Assembly: GCA_902518955.1 (NCBI GenBank)
Contig: CABYIR010000002.1
Span: 1 to 48,890 of the forward strand
Direction of reading: 5' to 3'
Source of the DNA: an uncultured Pelagibacteraceae bacterium
Lineage (GTDB): Bacteria > Pseudomonadota > Alphaproteobacteria > Pelagibacterales > AG-422-B15
Length of the DNA stretch: 48,890 bases
Part shown: positions 21,226 through 47,757 of the stretch, piece by piece
Layout of the letters: each line of letters opens with the position of its first letter
Position numbering within the stretch: the first letter of the stretch is position 1
The notes under the pieces: model-generated
Told to the model about the DNA's origin: nothing
Databases searched by the model: none
What the model saw: the letters and a program-made list of their open reading frames with translations, nothing else
Made by a program: the position numbers and the translations under genes

Positions 21226-21338
21226 TCAACAAAATTTAAGAAAATTAACTAAAAAAAAGAATAATTTAAAATCAGATAATTACTTGCAGAATTCATTTTT
21301 CTACATTAATAAACCACTATATATCCACGTTATCATTT

Positions 21339-21368
21339 AAAAGGCCTTAAGCAATTAAGGCCTTTTTT
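21339..21368 (+). terminator. Rho-independent terminator of the mdh-suc-lpd operon
   Basis: The stem AAAAGGCCTTAA (21339-21350) pairs with TTAAGGCCTTTT across a GCAA tetraloop and runs into six Ts ending at 21368. It lies about 115 nt after the lpd stop. This is a strong canonical terminator. Confidence 0.9.
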
Positions 21369-21369
21369 A

Positions 21370-21400
21370 TTGTAACAGAGTGATTATTAGATAATAATAT
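21370..21400 (+). promoter_or_regulatory. Candidate promoter of the intergenic RNA
   Basis: TTGTAA (21370-21375) is followed after 16 bp by TAATAA (21392-21397) or after 19 bp by TAATAT (21395-21400). It directly follows the lpd terminator, and initiation is expected near 21405. The match is moderate and the DNA is AT-rich. Confidence 0.4.
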
Positions 21401-21404
21401 AAGG

Positions 21405-21552
21405 ATGATAACGTGGAGGTTAAAAAGTTGAATCCACCAGAAAATTCTGGGTGGTGTCCAAAACTATCTCAAATAATTTTCAATTAAAAAATTTTTAATA
21501 AATTTTGGTGAAATATCCATATAGACCCCATATTTAAATTTGGGGTTTTTTT
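21405..21552 (+). ncRNA. Candidate small RNA (about 150 nt) with its own terminator
   Basis: A structured segment lies between a promoter-like sequence and an independent intrinsic terminator. It holds a bulged hairpin (CCACCAGAA 21434-21442 with TTCTGGGTGG 21445-21454), a longer-range CCAAAA/TTTTGG pairing enclosing a TTAAAAA/TTTTTAA hairpin, and a 3' stem with a T-tract. GTGGA at 21413-21417 can pair either with the upstream repeat arm or with TCCAC at 21433-21437, so alternative folds exist. A GGAGG and a 19-codon TTG frame (21428-21487) inside it leave open a tiny peptide instead. I recognise no known RNA family. Confidence 0.35.
21525..21552 (+). terminator. Second + strand intrinsic terminator
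   Basis: ACCCCA (21525-21530) pairs with TGGGGT (21541-21546), with a further ATTT/AAAT pairing inside, and is followed by a run of Ts to 21552. On the minus strand no T-run follows, so it works only in the + direction. It overlaps the 3' end of the convergent membrane-protein gene. Because lpd already has a terminator 160 nt upstream, it suggests a separate transcript. Confidence 0.75.
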
Positions 21553-22121
21553 ATGAGCTTTGTAATAGCAAAGATCCATACTGCTATTACTATATGATAT
21601 AGGTGAAAACTCATGGATGGATTTATAAAATCAGTAAGTAGTCCATTTTTTCTTATTGTTAGAAATCCTATAAGTAAAATTGACATAACCATTCCTCTTA
21701 AAATTTTTTGCAGAGTATTATGATTTGGATAATCCATTACTATAAGAATTGATATTACTGACCAGGTTAATATTAAATAAAAGATAAATTGTTTTGGCCA
21801 TACAATGCTAACAATTAAACTAATTACAAATATTGCTAGTAATAGTTTATAAATGTACTTCCATTGTAAGTTGAATGCCATCTGAACACAGACAAGCCCA
21901 ATACAAGTTAGGCCTGAGTAAATGCCCAAAATCATATTAAGTTTAATAATAGTTTCACTAGAATTAAAGCCATATCTAATAGCTCCCAAAGTAGCAGCAA
22001 TTCCGATGAGCATAACTCCAATAAGCGCAAAAAATTCTTTTCGACCTTTTAATAAATAAATTGAGTATATTGATGAAGCTACAATTAATACTTCGGTAAA
22101 TGCATAATGAGCAGGAAGCAT
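21534..22121 (-). CDS. Seven-helix integral membrane protein of unknown function
   Basis: The 195-residue product is almost entirely hydrophobic, with about seven predicted transmembrane helices connected by short loops (for example SSIYSIYLLKGRKEF, MDYPNHNTLQKILRG) and a basic C-terminal end KLIKKPQI. I do not recognise the family. It starts one base inside the stop codon of the di-iron hydroxylase gene, so the two are co-translated. A possible relation is to the C-terminal membrane half of alkylglycerol monooxygenases, which would make it a subunit of the hydroxylase. That is inference from context and topology only. Confidence 0.7.
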   Translation of the reverse strand: MLPAHYAFTEVLIVASSIYSIYLLKGRKEFFALIGVMLIGIAATLGAIRYGFNSSETIIKLNMILGIYSGLTCIGLVCVQMAFNLQWKYIYKLLLAIFVISLIVSIVWPKQFIFYLILTWSVISILIVMDYPNHNTLQKILRGMVMSILLIGFLTIRKNGLLTDFINPSMSFHLYHIVIAVWIFAITKLIKKPQI

Positions 22122-31978: not shown

Positions 31979-32464
31979 TTCATCTTTAAACTCATTTAAT
32001 ACATTTATATAAAGTTTTTTCTTGAATGGAACTATTATTTCAATTAACTCTTTTTTAGAAACCCATTTCCATTTTTTAAATTCTGGCTTTTCTGTTTGTA
32101 TATTTATTTCACTATCAATCCCAGAAAACTCAAGTAAGAACCATCTCTGTTCTTGACCTTTAAATCTTCCTCTCCATAATTTCTTTTGTAAGTAGGAAGG
32201 TAATTCATATTTATATTTTTTTTCACTTTTTTTTATAATTTTATAATTGTTTTTGATTCCTGTTTCTTCCTCTAATTCCCGTTTGAGTGCTTCGACTGAC
32301 TTCTCACCTTTATCAACACCACCCTGTGGCATCTGCCAAGCAGATTTATCCTTATCAAATCTCTGCCCTACAAAGATTTTTCCTTCTTTGTTCAAGAGCA
32401 TTATGCCAACACCTTTTCTATATATTTTTGATTTATACTGACTAGTTGATAGCTGTTTTTTCAT
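31970..32464 (-). CDS. rppH: RNA pyrophosphohydrolase (Nudix)
   Basis: RppH removes pyrophosphate from the 5' end of mRNAs or hydrolyses dinucleoside polyphosphates. The Nudix box GGVDKGEKSVEALKRELEEE followed by TGI is intact, preceded by SAWQMPQGG, and KLWRGRFKGQEQRWFL is typical of the RppH subgroup. I favour the ATG at 32464 (164 residues), which places the start 23 nt inside the end of ctpA; an ATG six codons earlier is possible. The ctpA-rppH pairing next to atpC is often seen in alphaproteobacteria. Confidence 0.92.
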   Translation of the reverse strand: MKKQLSTSQYKSKIYRKGVGIMLLNKEGKIFVGQRFDKDKSAWQMPQGGVDKGEKSVEALKRELEEETGIKNNYKIIKKSEKKYKYELPSYLQKKLWRGRFKGQEQRWFLLEFSGIDSEINIQTEKPEFKKWKWVSKKELIEIIVPFKKKLYINVLNEFKDELV

Positions 32465-33590
32465 CCAGTAAATCCAGTGCATATTCTAATTGCTTATCTA
32501 TCTCATTTTCATTACTGAAATCACTCTTTACTTCAATATCTGGAATTACACCAACTTTATGAATTGAGTCTCCTGAAGGAGTATAATAAAGGGCAGTGGT
32601 CATGCGTATTGCACTCTTGTCATTTAAAGGAAAGATTGTCTGAACTGATCCTTTTCCATAAGATTGAGCTCCTAATATTATAGCTCTTTTATGATCTTGA
32701 AGAGCGCCAGCAACAATTTCTGACGCTGATGCAGATCCTTCATTAATTAATACTATAAGAGGCTTGCCATTCGTTAAATCACCTTTTGTAGCATCAAAGC
32801 GTGCAATATTTCTCTTACCTCTTCCTTTTGTAGATACTATTTCACCAGAACTTAGGAAGTGATTTGTTACATCAATTGATTGACCTAATAGTCCACCTGG
32901 ATTATTTCTAAGGTCTAATATAAATCCAGAAATATTTTTTTCACCTATCTCTTTTTGTAAATCCTTAATGGCTTTCTTAATACCTTTGCCGGCCTGCTCA
33001 CTAAAAGAAATTAATCTTATATATCCAACATTCTCTTCACGTCTAAATTTTACTGCTTGAACAGTAATTATAGCTCTCTTTATTGATTTGATTAAAACTT
33101 CATCTTCACCAGCACGTGCTATTGATATTTCTACACTTGTTCCTACTAATCCCCTTAATTTTTCAACACCCTCTTGCAATGACTGTCCCTGAATACTTTC
33201 ACCATTTATATGAGTAATATAATCTCCAGGCATTACTCCAGCTTTTGCAGCAGGCGTATCATCTATGGGAGTTATGATTTTAATAAATCCATTTTCCATT
33301 GTTACTTCGATTCCTAAGCCACCAAATTCTCCCTCAGTTTCTTCTTGCATTTCAATATACTGATCAGTATTCATATATCCTGAATGTGGATCTAATGCTT
33401 GAAGCATTCCATTGATTGCAAATTCAATGACTTTTTCATCTTCAACATCTTCAACATAGTTTTTTTGTATTAAGTCAAATACATCTCCAAATGAGTCTAA
33501 CTTTTCATATAAATCTTTGTTATTTTCTGCGTGACTAGAATTTATAATTAATATTAGAAATATTAATAAATTAGTAAAAAATAATTTCAT
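32442..33590 (-). CDS. ctpA: Periplasmic carboxyl-terminal processing protease (S41A)
   Basis: CtpA degrades or trims periplasmic proteins. A signal peptide occupies residues 1-21 (hydrophobic LLIFLILII then SSHA). A PDZ domain follows (about residues 85-170, with GGLGIEV and AAKAGVMPGDYITHING). The S41 protease domain has the LRNNPGG segment, the nucleophile serine within GSASASEI (285-292) and the general-base Lys313 in YGKGSVQT. Length is 382 residues. It is 1 nt from rlmH and overlaps rppH. Confidence 0.94.
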   Translation of the reverse strand: MKLFFTNLLIFLILIINSSHAENNKDLYEKLDSFGDVFDLIQKNYVEDVEDEKVIEFAINGMLQALDPHSGYMNTDQYIEMQEETEGEFGGLGIEVTMENGFIKIITPIDDTPAAKAGVMPGDYITHINGESIQGQSLQEGVEKLRGLVGTSVEISIARAGEDEVLIKSIKRAIITVQAVKFRREENVGYIRLISFSEQAGKGIKKAIKDLQKEIGEKNISGFILDLRNNPGGLLGQSIDVTNHFLSSGEIVSTKGRGKRNIARFDATKGDLTNGKPLIVLINEGSASASEIVAGALQDHKRAIILGAQSYGKGSVQTIFPLNDKSAIRMTTALYYTPSGDSIHKVGVIPDIEVKSDFSNENEIDKQLEYALDLLDEKTAIN

Positions 33591-45885: not shown

Positions 45886-46497
45886 TTATTTTTTAGATAT
45901 TAAAAAAAGCCCTGATTCTGAAAAGTAGCTATCGTAAAGACTCTTGCCTTTGAATTCTTTAAATACCAATTTTCTTAAATCAGCTTTCTTTTCAATTTTA
46001 ATATTTAATCCTTCGCACAAATTTATAAAGTCATTGATAGTGCAAAAATGTAAATTTGGAGTTTCATACCAACTATAGTCTAGTGTACTATTAACAGGCA
46101 TTTCTCTATTAAAAAATAAACTCATAGCTATTGACCAATAGCCAAAATTTGGAAAAGAAACTATTGCTTTACCAGCGATTCTTACCAACTGTTCTAACAC
46201 AACTTTAGGATTTTTAGTTGCTTGCAAAGTGTAAGTTAAAATAGAGTAATCAAATAAATTATCAGGATAATCAAATAGGTCTGTATCTGCATCTCCTTCT
46301 ACAACAGATATTCCTTTGCTTAAACAAATTCTTATTTTGGATTGATCTATTTCCATCCCACGAGCTACCACATTATTATTTAATTTTAAATACTCAATTA
46401 AAGAACCATCACTGCATCCAATATCAATAATATTTGATTTTGAAGTGATAACATCTGAAATTATCTCAAATTCTTTTTTTTTATTAATTAAACTCAT
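45886..46497 (-). CDS. metW: Methionine biosynthesis protein MetW
   Basis: MetW is a class I methyltransferase-like protein that works with MetX in homoserine acylation in several proteobacteria. The SAM-like motif [15 protein letters not shown] and the MetW-specific segments [20 protein letters not shown], and [15 protein letters not shown] are present. I chose the ATG at 46497, which overlaps the metX stop by 4 nt and has a strong GGAGGGAG site (46500-46507); this gives 204 residues. Confidence 0.93.
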
Positions 46498-47612
46498 AGC
46501 TCCCTCCAAGTTGAACTTATAAAGCCGTTAAGAGCATCAAAGAATTCTGGTTCATCTAATAAAAAAGAGTCATGTCCATTTTCAGTTTCTATTTCTAAAA
46601 AACTTACATCAATACCAAGAGCATTTAGAGTTTTTACTATTTTTTTATTTTCAGATGTTGGATATAGCCAATCACTTGTAAACGAAATGCATAAAACTTT
46701 TGATTTCGTATCTTTAAATGCTTCAATCAATGAGCCATTGCTATTTGCAGTAATATCAAAATAATCCATTGCTCTAGTGATATAAAGATAGCTATTTGCA
46801 TCAAATCGATCAACAAACGAAATACCTTGATGTCTTAAGTAACTTTCAATCTGAAAATCAGCTTTAAATGAATAATCTAATTCATTTTTATCTTGGAGAT
46901 TTCTACCAAATTTTTGATGAAGTGACTCTTTAGAAAGATAAGATATGTGTGCTGCCATTCTTGCAACAGATAAACCTTTTGTTGGTTGATTATCTGTTTT
47001 ATAGTAGTTTCCAGATTGCCAATTTGGATCAGCCATTATTGATTGTCTCGCTAATTCATTTAGTGCAATATTTTGCGCTGAATGATTTACAGAAGTTGCT
47101 ATTGGTATTGCAGAGTGAACATATTCAGGAAATTTTGACAGCCATTCAAGTACAAGCATGCCTCCCATGGATCCACCAGTAACACAGAATAGTTTTTCAA
47201 TTGATAGATAATCAATTAATAACTTTTGTGCTTTCACCATATCAGAAATAGTAATAACAGGAAAATTGAGTCCAAATTCTTTTTGGGTGAGTGGATCAAT
47301 TTCCTTTGGGCCTGTTGAGCCCATACATCCTCCGATAATATTTGGACAGATTACAAAAAATTTATTTGTATCAATTGATTTATCAGGGCCTACTACATTT
47401 GACCACCAGCCTTCTTTTTTTGTAATTGGGTGCTGACTTGCAACATACTGATCTCCAGTTAGAGCATGGCAAATGAGGATTGCATTCGACTTTTGTTCAT
47501 TCAAATTGCCATAAGTAGTATAGGCAATTTTTACGGGACCTAAGCTCTTGCCACAATCAAGAAGTAATGGCCTCTCTTTGCTTGATAATTCAACTATTTT
47601 ATTCTTTTCCAT
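46494..47612 (-). CDS. metX: Homoserine O-acyltransferase
   Basis: MetX acylates homoserine for methionine synthesis. It is an alpha/beta hydrolase with the nucleophile Ser148 in [10 protein letters not shown], Asp in FTSDWLYP and His in NGHDSFLL, and the family motifs CHALTGD and [12 protein letters not shown]. The acyl donor (acetyl- or succinyl-CoA) cannot be decided by eye. I chose the ATG at 47612 over a GTG two codons upstream. Length is 372 residues. A SAM-II riboswitch with a terminator lies in its leader, so it is expected to be shut off when SAM is plentiful. Confidence 0.95.
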
Positions 47613-47631
47613 AAACACTTAATCTTTAAAC

Positions 47632-47664
47632 AAAAAAAAACCGCCCAACAACTAAGCTTGGCGG
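47632..47664 (-). terminator. Riboswitch-linked terminator in the metX leader
   Basis: Read on the minus strand, CCGCC (complement of 47660-47664) pairs with GGCGG (complement of 47641-47645), with two further A-T pairs next to it, and is followed by nine Ts (47632-47640). It lies between the SAM-II aptamer and the metX ATG and is most simply the expression platform. Confidence 0.82.
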
Positions 47665-47670
47665 CAATTC

Positions 47671-47726
47671 ACCTTTTTAGCTGTATTTCTTATGCGCCCG
47701 CAAGCTGTACTCAAATCGGCGCAAGT
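47671..47726 (-). promoter_or_regulatory. SAM-II riboswitch controlling metX-metW
   Basis: The minus-strand sequence matches the SAM-II pseudoknot consensus of alphaproteobacterial met genes. P1 is TGCGCC (complement of 47718-47723) with GGCGCA (complement of 47693-47698). The loop starts with the conserved GATTTGA and contains GCTTGCG, then comes ATAAGAAATACAG and the conserved 3' strand AGCTAAAAAGG (complement of 47672-47682). It is followed at once by the terminator. The match in order and spacing is close to the well-known marine metX example. Confidence 0.9.
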
Positions 47727-47729
47727 TAT

Positions 47730-47757
47730 TTTTTACATTTTCCCTAGGATATGTCAA
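47730..47757 (-). promoter_or_regulatory. Promoter of metX-metW-gloB
   Basis: On the minus strand TTGACA (complement of 47752-47757) is followed after 16 bp by TAAAAA (complement of 47730-47735). Transcription would begin right at the 5' edge of the SAM-II aptamer, which is where a riboswitch promoter should be. Confidence 0.6.

Follow-up and report, generated by a model that had tools for sequence, protein, structure and literature searches.

A putative tandem pair of small RNAs, A and B, in one SAR11 family, with a likely branch-specific target in the rho leader

In the SisA/CrfA pair of Caulobacter, the seed of a regulatory RNA has its complement in a short RNA that resembles the mRNA target of the regulator, and the CrfA–SisA interaction has been recovered on Hfq (PMC12559287). 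The type I loci zorO/orzO, tisB/istR and shoB/ohsC are patchily distributed and consist of adjacent RNA genes in which 15–19 nt of 5′-end pairing to the partner 5′ UTR operates without a need for Hfq; for OrzO acting on zorO, 15 nt suffices and Hfq is not required (PMC3919570). Salmonella SraL, which pairs with the rho mRNA leader, is reported to increase the amount of full-length rho mRNA by keeping transcription from ending too early (Silva et al, 2019, as related in PMC6582626). For SAR11 itself, the RNA motifs found by comparison in Ca. Pelagibacter ubique are, as far as their descriptions go, mainly cis-elements before rpsB, rpsL and ffh; a riboswitch is also among them, as are four weaker motifs located beside other genes (Meyer et al, 2009; PMC2704228).

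Here, we analyze a segment (21370–21552) between lpd and a fatty-acid hydroxylase cluster in a 48,890-nt stretch of contig CABYIR010000002.1 (the window), which a first-pass annotation had read as a possible independent small RNA unit. Our best reading is that the segment forms the second half of an undescribed two-gene RNA cassette, with RNA B (~21403–21553) inside it and a shorter predicted RNA, A, just upstream (Table 1). Both units, their complementarity, their joint presence or absence and a conserved site in rho can be read directly from the genomes. As in SisA/CrfA, the seed of a presumed regulator is matched by a complementary short RNA, but A and B lie next to each other in tandem and are passed on together as a single cassette, and Hfq was not found. 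The predicted A–B pairing of 13–16 bp is of the adjacent-antisense kind known from orzO/zorO; unlike the type I loci, however, the cassette is without a hydrophobic toxin, its mini-ORF has 5–6 codons (19 here), its genes are tandem rather than divergent, and in one branch rho is probably a conserved target in trans. The complementarity of B to the rho leader recalls SraL but is confined to the main branch of one genus (g4), and its position 13–29 nt before the start codon makes a block of initiation more likely; B is also without an Rfam match. By their descriptions, none of the P. ubique motifs occurs in the sequence context of A and B, and searches of Pelagibacteraceae genomes did not turn up B. 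The components (sRNA, sponge and leader antisense) are of known kinds; what is new is to see them combined in a tandem cassette, with rho as a likely target and no Hfq found.

SAR11-type ocean bacteria are very abundant and largely uncultured, and streamlined bacteria of this type are thought to have few regulators. A conserved sRNA whose antagonist is encoded beside it and whose target is probably rho would provide a concrete, testable case of RNA–RNA regulation without Hfq, and the cassette a possible route for tuning global transcription termination.

Table 1. Positions of cassette features in the window.
Feature	Position	Strand	Basis or remark
Putative A promoter (TTGCAG, 17 nt, TAATAA)	21284–21312	+	Sequence; like pairs at same distance in other genera
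RNA A, putative short antisense/sponge RNA (seed plus intrinsic terminator; 5′ end inferred)	21320–21370	+	Seed kept in 27/27 cassettes
A seed, TCCACGTTATCAT, 13 nt	21324–21336	+	Perfect inverted-repeat partner of 21405–21417, 100% (repeat search)
A intrinsic terminator, also for lpd read-through	21339–21366	+	12-bp stem, then TTATTGT
Putative B promoter (TTGTAA, 17 nt, AATAAT)	21370–21398	+	Consensus match 9/12; conserved match begins 6 nt downstream
RNA B, sRNA of ~150 nt	21403–21553	+	blastn to E 1e-20 in other genera; covariance model
B 5′ seed, with complements in A and (main g4 branch only) in the rho leader	21405–21417	+	
Shine-Dalgarno-like GGAGG in B	21415–21419	+	Lies 8 nt ahead of TTG/ATG; identical in every copy (alignments)
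Candidate B mini-ORF, 19 codons here (MNPPENSGWCPKLSQIIFN), 5–6 in other genera	21428–21487	+	Reading frame
Candidate B hairpin, 21449–21455 with 21463–21469	21449–21469	+	95.6% of cells paired
B intrinsic terminator	21524–21552	+	Fold; compensated stems in relatives; overlaps last codons of convergent gene in this genus only

RNA B and its conservation

The claim of an independent sRNA with its own start and stop was borne out by conservation in relatives. When the 3′ flank of lpd (21226–21560) was searched with blastn in 60 related genomes, the matches in other genera, with E-values down to 1e-20, all started at query base 179, corresponding to window position 21404, and upstream of this point only short A+T-rich pieces matched. 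This sharp conserved edge marks the predicted transcript start. The promoter-like boxes noted by the first-pass annotation (21370–21400) are present, although on their own they are no better than chance, as a scan for such sites found 54 against 56.8 expected; our promoter calls for A and B rest on consensus, and that for B gains credibility from the conserved match in other genera, whose first base is precisely 21404, 6 nt beyond the −10 box. At the 3′ end, RNAfold predicts a stem of 8 bp with a run of seven T behind it, up to 21552, in agreement with the terminator proposed earlier; our strict terminator scan, which allows loops of 3–8 nt, missed it because its loop measures ~10 nt. B is terminated intrinsically at the homologous place in every genus, with stems, longer in relatives, that differ in sequence yet are compensated. 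Genus g2 copies (L004–L007) carry an extra conserved hairpin, GGCAAAUGCC, before the terminator, which is not present in g1, the genus of the window, or in g4.

The fold of 21400–21555 only modestly beats its shuffles (z −1.9, 8/200; RNAfold). The candidate hairpin listed in Table 1 has one compensatory pair (types G-C, G-U and A-U), while in the 21434–21454 stem, where the first-pass annotation had proposed to look for such changes, there are none and a C-A combination breaks the stem in several g2 sequences and in genome G026. The 5′ domain of B therefore appears to be conserved by sequence more than by proven structure.

A covariance model (R1), built on the first 80 nt of B, detected a single copy in each of 28 of the 53 family genomes, among them 10 of the 12 near-complete ones; conservation of B spans three genera of this one SAR11 (Pelagibacterales) family. 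Among ~340 genomes of the sister family, Pelagibacteraceae, the model yielded no convincing copy; weak matches had E-values of 0.016–0.1, and the two that we inspected lack the conserved core and resemble unremarkable genomic sequence. The exact core is absent from 2.9 million viral contigs and has 26 matches in GTDB genomes, all of them single-cell genomes or MAGs of SAR11-type bacteria with Pelagibacteraceae or Pelagibacterales in their titles. As in the first-pass annotation, no known RNA family was recognized in the segment: Rfam 15 gave nothing at the gathering threshold and, at E up to 10, only chance-level matches (best 28.4 bits, with a cut-off of 99). Taken on its sequence, RNA B is very probably a genuine RNA gene.

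Could B act as a cis-antisense RNA on the convergent membrane-protein gene? In the genus of the window its 3′ end does run, as noticed before, under the last codons of this gene, with an overlap of ~19 nt with the CDS at 21534–22121. However, the overlap consists of the terminator alone, the least conserved part of B, is absent in g2 (L006 has the end of B at 1659 and that of the CDS at 1691) and has no counterpart in g4, where the neighbors are different. We therefore reject the proposed cis effect, to which we give hardly any credence.

Predicted RNA A and the two-gene cassette

The terminator that the first-pass annotation had assigned to lpd (21339–21368) is real, at 21339–21366 with 12 pairs, but it is predicted to be part of a second sRNA gene, complementary to the 5′ end of B, that had been missed. 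This unit, RNA A, spans ~50 nt with a promoter-like site, the sequence UCCACGUUAUCAUC and the terminator, and is most simply viewed as a short RNA of seed plus terminator. Complementarity to the first 13–16 nt of B (GAUGAUAACGUGGA) is found in 27/27 distinct cassettes over 13–16 nt, with energies of −17 to −23 kcal/mol, and the A seed is kept even though the terminator and promoter between the two arms vary from genus to genus. In the window, the A:B duplex reaches −20.6, compared with a shuffle mean of −6.7 and −16.9 for the best of 2000 shuffles, and a pattern scan of the 1.17-Mb genome G000 found the two arms to be the only sites with at most one mismatch. Duplex energies hardly change when partners are swapped between lineages (−20.6, vs −21.1 for own pairs); true co-variation between A and B is weak because the arms are nearly invariant. 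We consider it probable that the two RNAs pair. Two genomes, G008 and G026 (L023, L058), have one extra base in the B seed (GATGATTAACG and GATGATAAACG), which bulges the A–B duplex and puts an in-frame ATG at the very 5′ end of the transcript.

A perfect 13-nt inverted repeat whose arms flank a terminator and a promoter, as seen here, might instead be a DNA element, either an operator pair or an invertible promoter switch, with no pairing RNAs involved. The arms, however, are spaced 76–93 nt apart among the 27 distinct cassettes and their order is never inverted, their variants are mostly G-U compatible, conservation of B reaches ~70 nt beyond its seed arm, and a third copy occurs in the rho leader in mRNA sense (see below). 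On these grounds, we reject the DNA element as very improbable.

In g1 and g2 the cassette follows lpd with the same neighbors, and the A seed lies ~100–200 nt past lpd, in the same direction and ahead of a terminator. This arrangement would suit a scheme in which A is merely the 3′ UTR of lpd, a suc operon 3′ UTR serving as sponge and linking the TCA cycle to a stand-alone B. In g4, however, the cassette lies elsewhere, away from lpd, and A needs its own promoter there because the gene upstream is divergent; g1 and g2 likewise have promoter-like boxes in the corresponding position. The boxes for A in other genera are of the kind TTGCAA/TTGATT…TATAAG, with 9–11 nt from the −10 box to the seed. 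An lpd 3′ UTR as the source of A is thus improbable, although lpd read-through could contribute to A in g1 and g2. Six g4 genomes have an intact junction of the neighboring genes from which A and B are both cleanly missing, and this joint presence or absence, together with the different site in g4, indicates that A and B are inherited or moved as one unit.

The rho leader and a possible mechanism

In the main g4 branch, the 5′ end of B is also complementary, over 15–17 nt, to the leader of the rho mRNA. Relative to the start codon, this site lies at about −29 to −13; the identity of the rho gene was checked by Pfam. An exact third match is present in 17 main-branch g4 genomes that carry the cassette, and in 17/17 it lies in the rho leader. 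Here, A (CCACGUUAUCAUC) mimics the leader (CCACAUUAUCAUC), and B has a U where other branches have C, which fits an A in rho and leaves a G-U with A. The complementary site is the most conserved part of the rho leader in this branch: it is unchanged in 21 of 22 leaders, compared with variable columns of 20/51 upstream and 7/10 downstream. The remaining leader, of G064 (L118), has a 3-nt deletion in the site, and its predicted duplex is bulged yet stable at −25.0 kcal/mol.

Five g4 genomes with a confirmed empty cassette site and a readable rho lack the rho site. Four others have the rho site and no cassette, but the neighboring gene is missing as well, so their assemblies appear to miss the region. 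Because of phylogenetic dependence, the association between cassette and rho site amounts effectively to one event. The site is absent in g1, g2, g3 and the cassette-bearing deep g4 genome G008, and owing to this restriction rho cannot be the original function of the cassette. Pattern scans gave no second target in g1 or g2, where matches with two mismatches fell mostly inside unrelated genes and were not common to the genera. A match to CCACATTATCATC in the cassette-less genome G063 turned out to be unrelated to rho. For the main g4 branch, the evidence makes rho a likely, branch-specific target of B.

How might such a cassette work? We judge most likely, with modest confidence, that B regulates by base pairing and that A is a sponge or antisense RNA dedicated to it. 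B would be transcribed from its own promoter and stopped at its own terminator, and A, produced just upstream on the same strand as a complement of the B seed plus a terminator, would pair with the 5′ end of B, cover the seed and the edge of the Shine-Dalgarno sequence and put B out of action. When A is low, the B seed would be free; in the main g4 branch, free B would pair with the rho leader and most likely block Rho initiation, or else affect attenuation, with A as a mimic of the leader site. As in sponge pairs, the second RNA is complementary to the seed (27/27); mimicry of the target is confined to the main branch of g4. In this scheme we infer that both RNAs are transcribed and pair in the cell, and in which direction they regulate. 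Hfq (PF17209) is absent in 8/8 family genomes searched, with positive control genomes, and pairing without it would be workable because it is long and continuous.

The mini-ORF of RNA B and other RNA matches

The invariant GGAGG and the mini-ORF that follows suggest ribosome loading of B. Its codons read N/T/V-P-P-A/T, with peptides such as MNPPA, MTPPTL and MVPPTI, and in g2, g4, G008 and G026 a stop follows after 5–6 codons, whereas the genus of the window is without this early stop and reads on to 19 codons. Changes between copies preserve start, stop and prolines. A conserved Shine-Dalgarno sequence and mini-ORF are superfluous for a pure base-pairing regulator and count against the sponge model; a second role of A in hiding the B Shine-Dalgarno sequence is possible.

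These features form the basis of the explanation we rank second, a type I toxin–antitoxin-like unit in which B is an mRNA with a Shine-Dalgarno-driven mini-ORF (M-x-P-P-[TA]-x-stop), A an antisense RNA that blocks the ribosome site, and the peptide or a stalled Pro-Pro minigene the active agent. GGAGG stands 8 nt before a start that alternates between AUG and UUG, the stops UAA, UAG and UGA interchange, and the differences between G008 and G026 (GTG/GTC and CCA/CCG) are synonymous. In addition, A covers the B 5′ UTR up to the Shine-Dalgarno sequence, the whole cassette is patchily present, and the layout resembles zorO/orzO, with its 18-nt complementarity and no need for Hfq (PMC3919570). However, no frame of B holds a hydrophobic toxin ORF, only non-hydrophobic ORFs of 5–6 codons (19 here), the early stop is missing in the genus of the window, and the conserved rho-leader target is left unexplained. 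Moreover, no codon position varies in the stretch ahead of the start codon, so that selection at the RNA level dominates. All in all, we regard a toxin–antitoxin-like unit as unlikely. A bolder combination seems less likely still: a mobile two-RNA module of SAR11-type bacteria whose mini-ORF RNA, loaded with ribosomes, would act together with a dedicated tandem anti-RNA as a switch that needs no Hfq, and which one branch would have recruited to control the global terminator Rho by base pairing plus translation of the Pro-Pro mini-ORF.

Elsewhere in the window, the Rfam family Rp_sR47 has a match at 32603–32912 on the + strand (74 bits, E 6.5e-17), which lies antisense inside a carboxy-terminal processing peptidase-like gene (32442–33590, − strand); given this position, the family may largely reflect conserved coding sequence. 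A SAM-alpha riboswitch (47656–47732, − strand) is located directly upstream of a homoserine acetyltransferase-like gene (46494–47618, − strand), which is the expected arrangement.
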